Source: Anaerolineales bacterium
Lineage (GTDB): Bacteria > Chloroflexota > Anaerolineae > Aggregatilineales > UBA2796
Assembly: GCA_015075625.1 (NCBI GenBank)
Contig: JABTTZ010000002.1
Coordinates: 620,001-684,000, forward strand
Direction of reading: 5' to 3'
DNA: 64,000 nt
In this document: piece after piece, positions 37,467 through 44,588 of the stretch
Numbering within the stretch: the stretch's first letter is position 1
Layout of the letters: every line of letters starts with the position of its first letter
Notes under the pieces: generated by a model
The model's input: the letters and a program-made list of their open reading frames with translations, nothing else
What the model was told of the DNA's origin: nothing
Database searches by the model: none
Made by a program: the position numbers and the translations under genes

Positions 37467-39206
37467 CTACCCCCGCTGAGGGCGGAGCAGCAGCCACACC
37501 CCCAACACGCCGATAAGCACGGCAAACGCGCTGAGCAGCGGCAGAGGGTTTTTCTTTTTCGCCCGCACAATGCCCCTCAGCAGCGTGGCAGGATCGGAGA
37601 TCAGGGCGCGATCCGGGACGCTGTAATGAGCCGCCCATAACTCCTGATAGGCGGCTTCTTCCGCCGCCCATCGCCCATCGTCCCACCCTAACTCACGCTG
37701 GCAAACCGCCCGAATACGCGGCAGGTGATCGACGCCCCCACGCGGCAGGAGCATCCCAATCCGCGTCCGTCGCAGCAAGAGATCATCAAGGTGCTGAACG
37801 GACTCGCAGTGTGCCGAATGGCGCAGTTCTGCCCACAGAGACAGTGTGCCGGGGATCGGCTCAGCTTCCTCCGGGTGGGCGGCGATAAAGCCGAAGATTT
37901 CCAGTGCGTGCGTGCTGTAACGCCCCATAATCCGTTCAACCTGCGCTACCGAAAGAGGTATCGCAGCTAAATCATCCTCGGTGGGCATGGGCGGGTTAGG
38001 ATCGATGGGCGGCGCGGCGCGATCTGGTTCGGGCATGTCGGGAAGGTAGCGGTGGGCAGCGGCGAGGGCATCCAGCGCCATGAGACGGAAGGTCGTCAGC
38101 TTGCCGCCCGTGACGGTGATCAGCCCCTCCTCGTCCCAAACGGCATAATCGCGGGATTCCTTCGAGGGATCGGCTTTCCCCGTCCCTACGACGGGGCGGA
38201 CGCCCGCCCATGTCCCAATCACATCGTCCAGAGTCACCCCCGCAGCGGGGAACTGCCACAGCGCTCCGGCTAAGAGGTAGCTCACCTCCTCCGGGCTGAT
38301 TCGCGGTTCTGCCCGCAGATCGTCGTGATGGTCAACATCGGTTGTCCCGATGAGGGTGACACCCTCCCAGGGGTAGACAAAGACGGGGCGACCATCCAGC
38401 GGGTGGGCAAAACTGACCACTTGCGCCACTGGCAAACGCCACGCGGGAATGACAAGGTGACTTCCCCGCAGGGGGCGGATTTTCGCTGCCGCGCCAACTT
38501 GCCCGCGCAGATCATCCGCCCAAGCCCCTGTCGCCGCAATGACAACACGGGCGCGAATCGGCGCTTCTTCGCCCGTCGCACCCTCAAGGGTATTCACCCC
38601 AACGACCCGCCCGCCTTCACGGATCAGGCGTTCGGCGGCGCAGTAGTTGAGCGCCAACGCTCCCCGTGCGTCGGCATCGTTCAGCACGCGCATGACAAGG
38701 CGGGCGTCGTCCGTTTGGGCGTCTACATAGCGAAAGCCGCCAAGCAGCCCCTCGCGACGCAGATGGGGGGCAAGCATGAGGAATTCTTCTGCGCTGTAAT
38801 GACTGTGGGCGGTGTGACGTCTTTCGCCCGTTGCCATGACATCGTAAAGGGATAGTCCGGCGCGGTAGGCAAGCGCCCCCGGTGTATCGCCCGCGTAGGT
38901 GGCGATCAGAAAGCCGAGTTCTTCTACCAGCCCGGGCGCGGCGTTCAGCAATGCCCCTCGTTCGCGGACGCTCTCGTAGGTTAACTGCACATCGCCTGTT
39001 TTCAGATAGCGCAGCCCGCCGTGAACCATCTTTGAGGATCGGCTGCTCGTCCCCCACGCAAAATCACGCCGTTCGATGAGCGAAGCCCTCAATCCCAACC
39101 GTGCCGCTTGGTGAAGAATGCCTGCGCCAGTGATCCCGCCGCCAATGACCAGCACATCCCATGCCGTCGTTTTCAAGCGTTCCCAACGTTCGCTGCGGTG
39201 GATCAT
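37467..39206 (-). CDS. glpD: FAD-dependent glycerol-3-phosphate dehydrogenase
   Basis: 579 residues. FAD-binding DVLVIGGGITGAGILHQA at the N-terminus, then GTSSRSSKMVHGGLRYL, typical of GlpD, and a C-terminal helical domain. The last ~25 residues (PLLSAFAVLIGVLGVWLLL) form an extra hydrophobic helix, which could anchor the enzyme to the membrane; this is not usual for the family. It oxidises glycerol-3-phosphate to dihydroxyacetone phosphate, passing electrons to quinone. Its ATG overlaps the stop of the AGPS-like gene (ATGA), so both are coupled. Confidence 0.93.
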   Translation of the reverse strand: MIHRSERWERLKTTAWDVLVIGGGITGAGILHQAARLGLRASLIERRDFAWGTSSRSSKMVHGGLRYLKTGDVQLTYESVRERGALLNAAPGLVEELGFLIATYAGDTPGALAYRAGLSLYDVMATGERRHTAHSHYSAEEFLMLAPHLRREGLLGGFRYVDAQTDDARLVMRVLNDADARGALALNYCAAERLIREGGRVVGVNTLEGATGEEAPIRARVVIAATGAWADDLRGQVGAAAKIRPLRGSHLVIPAWRLPVAQVVSFAHPLDGRPVFVYPWEGVTLIGTTDVDHHDDLRAEPRISPEEVSYLLAGALWQFPAAGVTLDDVIGTWAGVRPVVGTGKADPSKESRDYAVWDEEGLITVTGGKLTTFRLMALDALAAAHRYLPDMPEPDRAAPPIDPNPPMPTEDDLAAIPLSVAQVERIMGRYSTHALEIFGFIAAHPEEAEPIPGTLSLWAELRHSAHCESVQHLDDLLLRRTRIGMLLPRGGVDHLPRIRAVCQRELGWDDGRWAAEEAAYQELWAAHYSVPDRALISDPATLLRGIVRAKKKNPLPLLSAFAVLIGVLGVWLLLRPQRG

Positions 39207-40810
39207 GGCAGTAACTTTCCGGGGTTCATAAGCCCCTCTGGATCAAAGGTGGCGAATAGAGTTCCCATTGCCTGCAAACCTAAAACACCTTTTTCCGCCT
39301 TTAGGTAGGGAGTGTGATCCAGTCCAACGCCGTGTTGGTGGCTGATCGTTGCCCCCCGCGCCATGATCACGCGGCTGGCGGCGTCCTTCAGGGCAAACCA
39401 GCGGCGGAGCGTTTCCTCATGGTTGAGGGAGGGACGAAAGACATAGGTCGTGTAGATGCTTGCCCCATGCGGGTAGACATGGGAGAGGTGGGTAAAGACA
39501 TGGACACGCTCGCCCACATCACTGAGCGCAGGGCGAATAGCATCCTCAATTCCTTTCATCGTCGCGGGGACGTTCGCCCACGTCGTCGCTGTCTCAAGGG
39601 TATCCACTGCGTAACCGCTTTCCCAAAGGGTGTTACGCAAGTAGGGCGTGCGGAAACGCCCTTTGCGCCATGTTGAGCCAAAGAGCCGCCCCACACGCCC
39701 CAATGAGACACCGCCGTGTTTGCGACACCATGCGCCAGCTTCGGCAAGGGCTGCCCGTACAAGGCGGTTTTGTCCGGTAGCTGCCATAAGCAAAAGACAT
39801 TTTCCCGCGCTGATTCCCAACCGACCTAAGACGCTCTCAATCAGGGCAATAAGCTGCTCCCGTCCGGCAAGGGCAAGGTTTGTCAGCGTCTCCGTTGGGT
39901 TGCTCAGCCGGAGCATGGAGAGGGGGACACCCGCTTGAACAATGCTCCGCGCCGCCGCCATCCCTGCGGCAAAATCGGGGAAGAACACGCCAGTGAACAC
40001 CTCCCGTTCGGGCAGCGGCATCACGCGCATGGCGGCATCGGTAAGCACCCCCAAACGCCCCTCTGATCCTAAAACGATCTCACGGAGGTCTATCCCTGCT
40101 GCCGAGGCGGGAAAAACGGGAAGGTCAAGCCGCCCAATGGGGGTTTCCACCCGCCCGCCGGCAAAGAGCCGCTCAATCCGCCCATAGTAGAGGGACTGCT
40201 GACCGCTGGAACGGGCGGCAACCCACCCACCAATGGTGGAATATTCCCACGACTGCGGGAAATGCCCCAGTGTGTAGCCCGCTGCCCGCAGTTGCGATTC
40301 AACCTCAACGCCGTTCGCCCCCGCCCCAAAGGTGGCAATCTGAGAGTCCCGATCAAGCCCCTGAAGGCGGTTCAACCGCGCCAACGAAAGCGTCAGAATG
40401 GGTGCGGCGGCGGCATCCTCACGGCGAGGATTGATATGCCCAACGACGCTTGTCCCCCCGCCGTAGGGAATCACCCACACGCCGTGATCACGGGCAAACC
40501 GGAGGAGCGCTGCCACCTCATCGGCGCTTTCGGGGAAGGCTACGCCATCAGGAAAAACGCCGATTTCCCCCGAACGGAGCGCTACCCAGTCCGGGAAGCT
40601 TTGCCCCCGCGCATGGCGCAGGCGAATCTCAGGATCGGTCTTGATCAGGGCGTGGGCGGGAAGGCGCGAGGGAGGGACGGTTCGCAGCACATCGCCCAAT
40701 GTGGCATCCTTCAGGCGCACAGGCGACCCCACAAGACGGGTGATCAGATCGAGTCCGTGCAGCGGGGGATTAACCGAATCATCCCCCCAACCATTCCAAC
40801 GGCGCGTCAT
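39203..40810 (-). CDS. FAD-binding oxidase, alkyldihydroxyacetonephosphate synthase-like
   Basis: 535 residues of the FAD_binding_4 (VAO) family. The FAD part shows VAFPESADEVAALLRFAR and YGGGTSVVGH; the cap part ends with ISHQHGVGLDHTPYLKAEKG, close to the histidine-rich block of alkylglycerone-phosphate synthase (AGPS), which swaps the acyl chain of acyl-DHAP for a fatty alcohol in ether-lipid synthesis. Coupling to glpD, whose product is dihydroxyacetone phosphate, supports that role. A glycolate-oxidase-like function is the main alternative. An acyl-DHAP acyltransferase was not seen. Confidence 0.85.
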   Translation of the reverse strand: MTRRWNGWGDDSVNPPLHGLDLITRLVGSPVRLKDATLGDVLRTVPPSRLPAHALIKTDPEIRLRHARGQSFPDWVALRSGEIGVFPDGVAFPESADEVAALLRFARDHGVWVIPYGGGTSVVGHINPRREDAAAAPILTLSLARLNRLQGLDRDSQIATFGAGANGVEVESQLRAAGYTLGHFPQSWEYSTIGGWVAARSSGQQSLYYGRIERLFAGGRVETPIGRLDLPVFPASAAGIDLREIVLGSEGRLGVLTDAAMRVMPLPEREVFTGVFFPDFAAGMAAARSIVQAGVPLSMLRLSNPTETLTNLALAGREQLIALIESVLGRLGISAGKCLLLMAATGQNRLVRAALAEAGAWCRKHGGVSLGRVGRLFGSTWRKGRFRTPYLRNTLWESGYAVDTLETATTWANVPATMKGIEDAIRPALSDVGERVHVFTHLSHVYPHGASIYTTYVFRPSLNHEETLRRWFALKDAASRVIMARGATISHQHGVGLDHTPYLKAEKGVLGLQAMGTLFATFDPEGLMNPGKLLP

Positions 40811-40850: not shown

Positions 40851-41300
40851 CTAAAACAAACTCAACTGCGTCAGGTCTTGGGCGGGGGGGGGCGGCGGTT
40901 GTTCTGCAGGCGACGGGAGGGCTGAGGCAATTTCCGATTCGTCGTGTGCCTGTGGTTCTTCAACATATGTGGCAGGGGAAACATCCGGCTTCGGCTCAAT
41001 CATGACGGCAAGGGCAGCCTCCAAGCGTGCCAGCGCCATCTCCTCGGCGGGGGTTGTCTCCACGCGGGGCATGTCTGATTCCTCCTCAACGGGTGGGCTG
41101 TTAATTTCCGACTCGGCATCGTGCGAGGGAGGGATCCCTTCGTACTGAAGGGCGTCCAACTCGTGAGAATCGACCCCAATACGGAGCAAGACACCGCGCA
41201 AACTTGCCTCGTTGGAGGTATCTTGCTCCACTACCACGAAACGGTAATGTGCTATCAAACAGGCGTACCATTCCTCCGCAAAGGGATTATAGGTGGGCAT
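40851..41300 (-). CDS. Small acidic protein ending in a beta-clamp-binding-like motif
   Basis: 149 residues, no family recognised. A folded-looking N-terminal part (1-55: FAEEWYACLIAHYRFVVVEQ, LRGVLLRIGVDSHELDAL) is followed by an acidic, proline-rich disordered tail. The last residues are LTQLSLF-stop; QLSLF matches the consensus pentapeptide (QL[S/D]LF) used by bacterial polymerases and repair proteins to bind the DnaN sliding clamp, and it sits at the extreme C-terminus after a flexible tail as in many such partners. It is in a run with NurA and a nuclease. The clamp role is inference. Confidence 0.7.
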   Translation of the reverse strand: MPTYNPFAEEWYACLIAHYRFVVVEQDTSNEASLRGVLLRIGVDSHELDALQYEGIPPSHDAESEINSPPVEEESDMPRVETTPAEEMALARLEAALAVMIEPKPDVSPATYVEEPQAHDESEIASALPSPAEQPPPPPAQDLTQLSLF

Positions 41301-41347
41301 CGGTTAGACCTTTTGCCTCCTCGTTCCGAGATGAATTCTGTTAGGAA

Positions 41348-42757
41348 TTACAGCGTGAAACTTTGCCCAAAGGTCGGCAGATCAATGTGTTCCAAACCCA
41401 CCTCTGCCGTCAAGCCTTGTTTCAGTGAAAGCAGCGGCTTTTCTTCGCCATGCACAAGGAAGGTTCGGCGGGGCTTCTTCTTGATCGCCCCTGCCCAATT
41501 TAACAAATCCGTCCGTCCAGCGTGTGCCGAAAAGCCGCTGATGCGAACGATCTCCGCACGAACATCAAACTTTTCGCCAAAGATGCTCACGGGCGATTCA
41601 TGGTTTTCCAGTTTACGCCCTAGTGTGTGTTCCGCCTGAAAACCAACCAGCAAAATGGTGTTCCGCTTCTGCTCAATGTTGTTGCGCAGATGGTGCAAAA
41701 TGCGCCCCGATTCCGCCATCCCACTGGCGCTAATGATCACAATGGGGCGATCAATCCCATTCAGCGCCTTGCTGTCATCCGCCGAGCGCGTGTATTTCAA
41801 CCCCCTAAACCCAAAGGGATCGCGGCTGGCGGCTGAGCCGCTAATGAATTCGCGGATTTCTTCATCATAACATTCAGGGTGGTTGCTGAACACACCGGTG
41901 ACATTCACGGCGAGTGGGCTATCGACATATATCTCCATCGGCGGGATTTTCTGCTCAAGGGTGAGTTGGTGTAGGGTGTACACAAGCTCTTGCGCCCGTC
42001 CAACGGCAAAGGAGGGGATGATCACCTTGCCCCCCCGTGCATAGGTGCGTCCGATCACATCTTGGAGGATCGCTTTCGCATCGTCATAGCTTTCGTGATC
42101 TTTATCGCCGTAGGTGCTTTCCATAATCAGCACATCCGCCTCATCAATGGTCGATGGGTCGCGCAGGATGGGCGCCCCGGGTGAGCCAATATCGCCGCTA
42201 AAGACCAACTGAATGTCTTTGCCCGCCTCACGGTCTTCGATGGTCAGGCTGGTAATGGCGCTCCCTAGCATATGTCCAGCATCACGAAAGGTGAGTGCGA
42301 TTCCGGGCAAAATCTCAACAGTGCGTTCGTAGCCCACACTCCGCAGGTATTTCAGTGCCTTCACCGCATCCTCTTGGGTGTAGAGCGGTTTGAAGGGGGG
42401 CAGTCCCTCACGGGTGCGAATCTTGTTCGTAAATTTGACATCGCTCTCTTGAATGTGGGCGCTGTCGAGGAGCATTGCCCCGCACAGGTCTTGAGTTGCC
42501 CCTGTGCAGAAAATATCCCCCCGAAAGCCGTTCTTTACCAGCATAGGAATATTTCCGGCGTGGTCGGTATGGGCGTGGGAGAGAACCATCACATCGATCT
42601 GCGCCGCATCAAAGGGAAGTTTGCGGTTTTTATCAAAGGCTTCCGAGCGCTTGCCCTGAAACAAGCCGCAGTCCAGCAAGATGCGCCGCCCGTTGACCTC
42701 AATGAGGTGTTTGCTACCCGTCACTTCGTGGGCAGCCCCATGAAAGGTAATCTTCAT
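41348..42757 (-). CDS. Metallo-beta-lactamase/beta-CASP nuclease with RMMBL domain
   Basis: 469 residues. The zinc-binding motif is SHAHTDHAGN (H61, H63, D65, H66), with FRDAGHMLGSA and FSGDIGSPG as further metal ligands, a beta-CASP insert (IIPSFAVGRAQE, YVDSPLA, ISASGMAESGR) and the terminal RMMBL part (FSAHAGRTDLL, FLVHGE). This is the CPSF73/YSH1-like branch of RNA nucleases, distinct from RNase J. Bacterial members are thought to process RNA; DNA-acting beta-CASP enzymes (Artemis, SNM1/Pso2) also exist. The gene begins 14 bases after the HAS-barrel gene. Confidence 0.92.
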   Translation of the reverse strand: MKITFHGAAHEVTGSKHLIEVNGRRILLDCGLFQGKRSEAFDKNRKLPFDAAQIDVMVLSHAHTDHAGNIPMLVKNGFRGDIFCTGATQDLCGAMLLDSAHIQESDVKFTNKIRTREGLPPFKPLYTQEDAVKALKYLRSVGYERTVEILPGIALTFRDAGHMLGSAITSLTIEDREAGKDIQLVFSGDIGSPGAPILRDPSTIDEADVLIMESTYGDKDHESYDDAKAILQDVIGRTYARGGKVIIPSFAVGRAQELVYTLHQLTLEQKIPPMEIYVDSPLAVNVTGVFSNHPECYDEEIREFISGSAASRDPFGFRGLKYTRSADDSKALNGIDRPIVIISASGMAESGRILHHLRNNIEQKRNTILLVGFQAEHTLGRKLENHESPVSIFGEKFDVRAEIVRISGFSAHAGRTDLLNWAGAIKKKPRRTFLVHGEEKPLLSLKQGLTAEVGLEHIDLPTFGQSFTL

Positions 42758-42771
42758 GATTCGTGTCTTTC

Positions 42772-43362
42772 TTATGGTTTGATGAGGCGCAGCAAGTGAT
42801 TTAAGCGGGGGAGATCACCGCTTAACAATTGCGCCAAACGCCGTCCAGATCGTACCAGAAAATCGCGTTGTTCGCGCTCATGACGTGCCAATGCCGCGTT
42901 TTTGACCGCTGCCGCCAGCAATTCCTCCGCCGGCACTTCCGAGGTGTTCAGAATCAGGCGGAAGAAATCGGCGTTCTCGGTGAAGGCGATCACGGTGTCG
43001 GCATCGCATAGGTAGACTGGATCAAGGCTGAGCGGCGGACGCGGCGGCAGCGCTTGATAAATATCGCCGCGCACCTGATAGCCAATGTTGACGATGCTGA
43101 TCTCAACCGGAATCATCCGGTTTTCGCGCTGGTCACGGATGGCAGCGGTGGTCAGGTTATTCGCCATGATCAACTGGCGAACGAGCGGATCGTCGTCAAT
43201 GCGAATGGCGTAGATCAGCCCGATGATGCGCAAGGACTCATCATGTTCGGTGTAGACGAACGCGCCAAAATACGGCGTCGTAATCTCACTGCCGCGCATC
43301 CCGCAGGCATACCCTGTTGTGCTTGCGCGTAAGACGCGCCCAATCAAGCCCGAATCGTCCAC
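42772..43362 (-). CDS. Stand-alone HAS-barrel-like protein (HerA N-terminal-type domain)
   Basis: 196 residues. The N-terminal ~110 (GLIGRVLRASTTGYACGM, TTPYFGAFVYTEHD, RIIGLIYAIRIDDDPLVRQL) resemble the HAS barrel, the small domain at the start of HerA and ATP synthase subunits; in HerA it helps dock the NurA nuclease. No P-loop or ATPase core follows; instead there is a helical C-terminus (AAVKNAALARHEREQRDFLV). The GTG at 43362 has GAAGGAG 11 bases upstream. It lies 20 bases after nurA, fitting a NurA partner. The domain call is by pattern and needs profile confirmation. Confidence 0.68.
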   Translation of the reverse strand: MDDSGLIGRVLRASTTGYACGMRGSEITTPYFGAFVYTEHDESLRIIGLIYAIRIDDDPLVRQLIMANNLTTAAIRDQRENRMIPVEISIVNIGYQVRGDIYQALPPRPPLSLDPVYLCDADTVIAFTENADFFRLILNTSEVPAEELLAAAVKNAALARHEREQRDFLVRSGRRLAQLLSGDLPRLNHLLRLIKP

Positions 43363-43382
43363 GTTGGCATCGACTCCTTCAA

Positions 43383-44588
43383 TTAAACCCCTTCATGGTG
43401 GCGGCGACCATAGCGAGCAAGGTGTTTGCTGCTCAATTTTTGAGACATTTCCAACCGCTGCCGATTTTTCAAGAGCGCTACTGCAATCATGTCGTCAAGA
43501 TAACGCTTCTCGGCGGGCTGCACCACAGCGATTTCATCGGCACGGGTTAACGCATAGGGATAACGATCTGTGATCTGGCACTGGCGGTGAAGGATGGACT
43601 GCACGGCGTTGACCAGCGGCTTGTTACGTGCCACCCACATGGGCAGTTCCACCCGCACAATGTAGGGGGCTTGTCCGGTTGAGGCGGCGTTTAGATAGAA
43701 AAAGACGATCTCTTGATGGTCGCCATGCCGTTCTTTGTATTCTTTGTTCAGCGGACTTTGCTGAATCATCAGCCCAGAGCGACTCCCAGGGGGCAGCAGG
43801 CGGGCATAGAGATCGCTGTCGGTGATGTTCTCCAAAAGCGGAACGCTGACGTTCAGGCGGGTTACTTCGTCTTCGGTGAGGGTCATCAGGTAAAGCGTAT
43901 AGACAAGGAAGCGGCTGGAGGGGCGATCCACATAGCCGGTCAGGGCAACACCCTCATCAAAGAGGAAATCCATCGCCTCGTGGTAGTCCATCGTCAACAT
44001 GCCCGCGTTCGGAATATCTTTCCCCATCGGCATTCCGATCAGGGGTCCGTCATAAAGCGCGATACGCGGCGTGGCGTCGTCCCCTTTACGGATGGCGACT
44101 TTGGCAAGGGTTTGCATTTCATAGACCGTTCGCCGCGCATTGATTGCCCCACTGCTGATCAAGCGCCCCTCGCTGTCACGGATGTCTTCCTCGCGGTAGT
44201 ACAACTGCGGCTCAACCACGATCTCCGGCAGGCGATCCGTGCCGTGATGATAGATGAACACACCAATATTCGTTAGCCAGTAAGGGGCGGGCGCGTGTTG
44301 GTCGGGGTAGATTTGCGAACCATCCGCCGCGTAGATCGTTGCCAAATCTGGCGCGGGGCAAAGGTCAATCGGTCTATTCAGCGGCTCATCCATTGGCGCA
44401 GCGCCGCGAAACCCGGCGTCATTGTGACGGGCGAGTAAGATGCGCTCCCAAATTTCATTCAGATCAGTTGCCTTCATCAGCAGATCAAAGGCAGTTTCGG
44501 TCTGCTCCAAAATGCTGCTGCGCTGATCGGCAACTTCCAAGCCCATTTGCGCGACTTGCGGTTCAATCTTCTCAAAAGGGAGTGCCAT
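43383..44588 (-). CDS. nurA: NurA-domain nuclease
   Basis: 401 residues. The NurA domain is marked by IYAADGSQIYPDQH (metal-binding D89), RIALYDGPLIG (D180), the LVYTLYLMTL region and the C-terminal YPYALTRADEIAVV. NurA is a 5'-3' nuclease which in archaea acts with HerA, Mre11 and Rad50 in end resection; bacterial forms occur in thermophiles, cyanobacteria and Chloroflexota. It is the first gene of a long minus-strand run. HerA is absent from the window, but a HAS-barrel protein follows immediately. A ~45-residue helical N-terminus precedes the domain. Confidence 0.85.
   Translation of the reverse strand: MALPFEKIEPQVAQMGLEVADQRSSILEQTETAFDLLMKATDLNEIWERILLARHNDAGFRGAAPMDEPLNRPIDLCPAPDLATIYAADGSQIYPDQHAPAPYWLTNIGVFIYHHGTDRLPEIVVEPQLYYREEDIRDSEGRLISSGAINARRTVYEMQTLAKVAIRKGDDATPRIALYDGPLIGMPMGKDIPNAGMLTMDYHEAMDFLFDEGVALTGYVDRPSSRFLVYTLYLMTLTEDEVTRLNVSVPLLENITDSDLYARLLPPGSRSGLMIQQSPLNKEYKERHGDHQEIVFFYLNAASTGQAPYIVRVELPMWVARNKPLVNAVQSILHRQCQITDRYPYALTRADEIAVVQPAEKRYLDDMIAVALLKNRQRLEMSQKLSSKHLARYGRRHHEGV

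Follow-up and report, generated by a model that had tools for sequence, protein, structure and literature searches.

A stand-alone HAS-barrel protein encoded beside NurA and HerA in Chloroflexota, a probable third part of the DNA-break-processing machine

Outside the RecBCD/AddAB world, the NurA-HerA pair is one of the main machines for the processing of DNA ends. Its control is disputed: a 2026 study in Thermococcus doubts that NurA-HerA resects at all (PMC12977600). HAS barrels keep the toroid assembled in F1-ATPases and in HerA. NurA docks onto HerA's HAS barrel in Deinococcus radiodurans (PMC9960219), and in Thermococcus the NurA contact of this barrel is formed by helix alpha1 and the preceding loop (PMC12977600). 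Archaea carry herA, nurA, mre11 and rad50 in one operon (PMC12977600).

The window analysed here is a 64,000-nucleotide stretch of an Anaerolineales genome. Four open reading frames were verified on its minus strand, co-directional and separated by intergenic gaps of 20, 14 and 47 bases, as the initial annotation had described. They encode a 401 aa NurA-type nuclease (nurA, positions 43383–44588), a 196 aa protein with a GTG start and the predicted fold of a HAS barrel (42772–43362), a 469 aa TTHA0252-type beta-CASP/RMMBL metallo-RNase (41348–42757) and a small acidic protein of 149 aa with the C-terminal clamp-type motif QLSLF (40851–41300). Two further co-directional genes, FAD-linked oxidase-like and glycerol-3-phosphate-dehydrogenase-like, named from their translations alone, are found at 37467–40810, 40 bases after the QLSLF gene.

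The assignment of the first gene to NurA is borne out by a Pfam NurA match (E-value = 2.5e-24) and by an AlphaFold model (pLDDT 94.5) whose top Foldseek match is the S. solfataricus NurA structure 2ygk (E-value = 7.6e-11). The RNase H-like catalytic acids D89 (in DGS), E157 and D180 are present and conserved. A genome search showed this to be the sole NurA of the genome.

The 196 aa protein of the window itself matches no Pfam family, and PDB sequence searches with it and A1 as queries gave chance matches only. The HAS-barrel profile PF09378 is matched by 23 of its 56 homologues, with a best E-value of 3e-5. The AlphaFold model (pLDDT 92.3, pTM 0.87) consists of a beta barrel, residues 5–118 approximately, followed by C-terminal helices at 121–194. 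All of the best 50 Foldseek PDB matches of this model are HerA or HerA-like chains, aligned at their N-terminal barrels (to HerA, E-value = 2.1e-6), and VIA-align gives Z values of 11–14.7 against most of the HerA chains listed and about 9–11 against the N-terminal barrels of F1-ATPases. No P-loop domain match of the FtsK/HerA ATPase type was found in the protein. As modelled, the protein is a true HerA-ATP-Synthase (HAS) barrel in stand-alone form, which upholds the original reading of a HAS barrel that lacks an ATPase core. A profile-profile (HH) comparison of the HAS family with HerA did not reach a significant score, its weak match falling on a hairpin within the HerA barrel.

Two polar residues are strongly conserved in the segment that follows strand 4 and comprises a loop and the start of a helix: D58 is present in 53 and R62 in 52 of the 56 homologues. 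By the order of secondary structure elements only, this segment may be equivalent to the docking helix of HerA. No mapping of the acidic residues D78/E80/D81 of D. radiodurans HerA onto the HAS family was obtained. The C-terminal helical part of the family is likewise conserved. Natural NurA-HAS or HAS-HerA fusions were looked for and not found. A second HAS subfamily, searched for in all genome contigs with narrow patterns, turned up records of Chloroflexota type, of which two carry no label but 'Bacterium HR26/HR28'; it was not found in plasmid records, nor was the window protein in phage records. Cyanobacteria may have a similar protein.

A search of the genome (4.68 Mb, 98.5% complete) for herA gave one full-length copy at G000:C2:90502-92061, which lies on the same contig about 0.57 Mb away. 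Thus nurA and herA are both present, one copy each, and the initial statement that HerA is not in the window, while true of the window, is misleading as regards the genome. HerA (L002:952-2715) is 587 aa long and carries its own HAS barrel. A gene for an SbcD/Mre11-type nuclease (TIGR00619, E-value = 1.6e-36) is also found elsewhere in the genome, at G000:C5:74974-75771 (L207).

Among 150 genomes of the class Anaerolineae the HAS gene was detected in 109, NurA in 121 and HerA in 108; several of the genomes scored as HAS- or HerA-negative come from a divergent clade where the two genes adjoin nurA at lower similarity. NurA is encoded immediately upstream of HAS in 82 of the 109 HAS genomes and HerA immediately downstream in 39, with one or the other neighbour in 93, and the reversed gene order was not found among the 109. 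Where the fetched loci hold all three genes, the order is nurA>HAS>herA on one strand in every case (40/40). The same order is found in other classes of Chloroflexota, and over the phylum the HAS gene is present in 117 of 301 genomes. Co-occurrence in the 150 genomes gives Fisher 2x2 P values of 2e-12 for HAS with NurA and 3e-13 for HAS with HerA, but these overstate independence since the genomes are related. Two partial arrangements are also found: HAS beside NurA with HerA elsewhere, and HAS-herA pairs with no nurA in the fetched stretch (e.g. L042, L056, L059, L066). The initial annotation had proposed that the HAS protein recruits NurA to a partner other than HerA. This is not supported, because the genome does encode HerA, and other members of the phylum have the HAS gene positioned between nurA and herA.

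The NurA-HerA machine for processing DNA breaks probably has a third component that has been overlooked, the HAS protein. It bears the type of barrel that HerA uses for NurA docking and therefore most likely binds NurA. On balance it appears to be a phylum-wide third subunit of the resection machine, an adaptor or gate that would bind NurA and couple it to HerA. The analysis establishes what the genes are, the modelled fold, their co-occurrence across the phylum and their constant order; a physical contact of the HAS protein with NurA or HerA, its stoichiometry and an effect on resection are inferred. Chloroflexota would encode this machine as nurA-HAS-herA, in one clade with mre11-rad50 in front; at the present locus herA would have become separated while nurA and the HAS gene remained together, upstream of the beta-CASP RNase and the clamp-motif protein. 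It would bind NurA by mimicking or supplementing the HAS ring of HerA. As an adaptor or gate, it may set the seating of the NurA dimer on the HerA hexamer and the timing at which DNA is fed to it during double-strand-end resection. More tentatively, a three-part NurA-HAS-HerA machine may be the rule throughout the phylum, with the free HAS barrel as a docking layer of its own between nuclease and motor, or as a removable gate. Each HerA has its own HAS barrel, so the kind of docking described for Deinococcus has no need of a further one, and this counts against a third subunit.

The tight linkage of the HAS gene to nurA (adjacent in 82/109) would also be expected of an inhibitor or decoy occupying the HerA-docking face of NurA, or NurA's place on HerA, by which the nuclease would be held inactive until DNA ends become available. 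Competition is what one would naturally expect from a soluble duplicate of a docking domain. The partial distance correlation is likewise higher with NurA (HAS-NurA given HerA, 0.57; HAS-HerA given NurA, 0.24), a weak hint, confounded by shared ancestry, that HAS distances may track NurA more than HerA when the third protein is held fixed. However, HAS is kept with both partners across much of the phylum, and also beside herA alone, and the conserved C-terminal helical part would be superfluous for a minimal decoy. A decoy is the main rival, though an unlikely one. The published docking of HerA, the D58/R62 segment and the closer agreement of HAS distances with those of NurA together favour the adaptor or gate.

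The HAS-herA pairs with no nurA nearby could be read in another way, namely that the HerA motor is the sole partner of the HAS protein, which would serve e.g. as a factor for assembly or loading of the hexamer and adjoin nurA merely through a shared operon. The toroid-holding role of HAS barrels, together with the Z values of about 10 against the F1 barrels, would agree with this, but linkage to nurA is twice as frequent as linkage to herA (82 vs 39), and a HerA-only function is held to be improbable.

A divergent clade of Anaerolineae shows the order mre11-rad50-nurA-HAS-herA (L149, L150, L152-L154, L158-L161, L163; some cut by contig ends). The families were checked at L159, where a calcineurin-like phosphoesterase, an SMC_N protein with the Rad50 zinc hook, NurA and DUF87 are encoded; the 196 aa protein between NurA and HerA has no Pfam match there and is called HAS by position and length. 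At most other loci of the clade the protein in this position matches the HAS profile weakly, at about 1e-5 to 1e-9. By this company the HAS gene is tied to double-strand-end processing. The arrangement resembles an archaeal-like resection operon in bacteria.

The beta-CASP protein encoded downstream of HAS matches PF10996, PF07521 and Lactamase_B_6, and its nearest solved structure by PDB match is the Thermus RNase TTHA0252 (E-value = 2.6e-84). The zinc motifs HAHTDH, GH, GD and SAHAG are all intact and the MBL, beta-CASP and RMMBL parts are all present, so the identification as a beta-CASP/RMMBL metallonuclease with intact zinc ligands stands. Orthologues were found in 27 of 31 genomes searched, its own included. 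The small acidic protein has a net charge of −23 and gave no family match; homologues occur in 36 of 61 genomes searched, its own included. The QLSLF sequence, a motif of the QLxLF type, is at its exposed C-terminal end as originally noted, and is conserved: the last residues of 22 out of 31 complete homologues fit QLx[LFM]F exactly while other tail positions vary, with a chance of about 2e-5 per unrelated C-terminus. The tail supports clamp binding as a probable conserved trait of this protein, not a role with NurA.

The beta-CASP and QLSLF genes adjoin in the same order in the window (40851–42757) and at L171, L173, L174, L179-L186, L193, L200 and L205, apart from NurA-HAS in most relatives. 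This pairing, judged from gene order and sequence, suggests an RNase that may be tied to the sliding clamp. The idea that the clamp-motif protein ties a NurA module to replication forks finds no support. NurA, HAS and beta-CASP are contiguous in four of the eleven family genomes (G000, G431, G433, G440). The contig of G431 stops after the beta-CASP gene and the small-protein gene is found on a different contig, so that the complete four-gene run was read directly in three genomes (G000, G433, G440). In the remaining seven the NurA-HAS pair and the beta-CASP pair are on separate contigs. Thus the four-gene block is local, intact in only part of the family, and NurA-HAS and beta-CASP-QLSLF are two separately conserved pairs; the initial concept of a single four-protein module did not hold up.

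These data bear also on a fourth reading, in which the HAS protein substitutes for HerA and brings NurA to a different partner, within one repair module at forks that also includes the beta-CASP enzyme and the clamp-motif protein. The adjacency of the four genes here and in G433 and G440, and of the first three in G431 up to the contig end, is what such a module would show, as is the conserved clamp-type tail. It is nevertheless the least probable of the explanations, and a remote one: the genome encodes HerA, HAS is linked to herA elsewhere, and the two pairs are on different contigs in the other 7/11 family genomes.

If the HAS protein is a third subunit, then NurA-HerA would have an obvious regulator in a conserved component built on the docking fold, and the free HAS barrel would represent a mode of nuclease-motor coupling unseen in the two-part machines whose structures are available to date. 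The bacterial mre11-rad50-nurA-HAS-herA operons tie the machine to double-strand-break processing. The parts, NurA, HerA and the HAS barrel, are known; the three-part arrangement is what is new within the literature searched. It was not met in that search, which did not extend to a comparative-genomics study of the HerA-FtsK superfamily from 2004 that may mention stand-alone HAS barrels.

Among known systems, the HerA-based defence complexes DUF4297-HerA, SIR2-HerA and TdpAB are similar in that their HerA barrels match the HAS model and HerA has a partner enzyme in them as well. Unlike these, NurA and the HAS protein gave no PADLOC match, for which reason a defence reading was dropped, and the HAS gene, as a rule present in one copy, occurs in many families of the phylum. 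The PF09378 domain at the N-terminus of HerA and of the F1-ATPase alpha and beta subunits has the same barrel fold and gives weak profile matches, but here the barrel is a protein in its own right, followed by C-terminal helices and lacking an ATPase core. The Deinococcus radiodurans end-resection complex is likewise built of a NurA nuclease and a HerA hexameric translocase whose N-terminal HAS barrel docks NurA (PMC9960219). That complex has a HerA:NurA ratio of 6:2 and no such subunit (PMC9960219), whereas the pair in Chloroflexota comes with a separate gene for a HAS barrel. The second Anaerolineae clade, with mre11-rad50-nurA-HAS-herA, groups the same resection functions as the archaeal herA/nurA/mre11/rad50 operon (PMC12977600) but differs from it by the extra HAS-barrel gene between nurA and herA.
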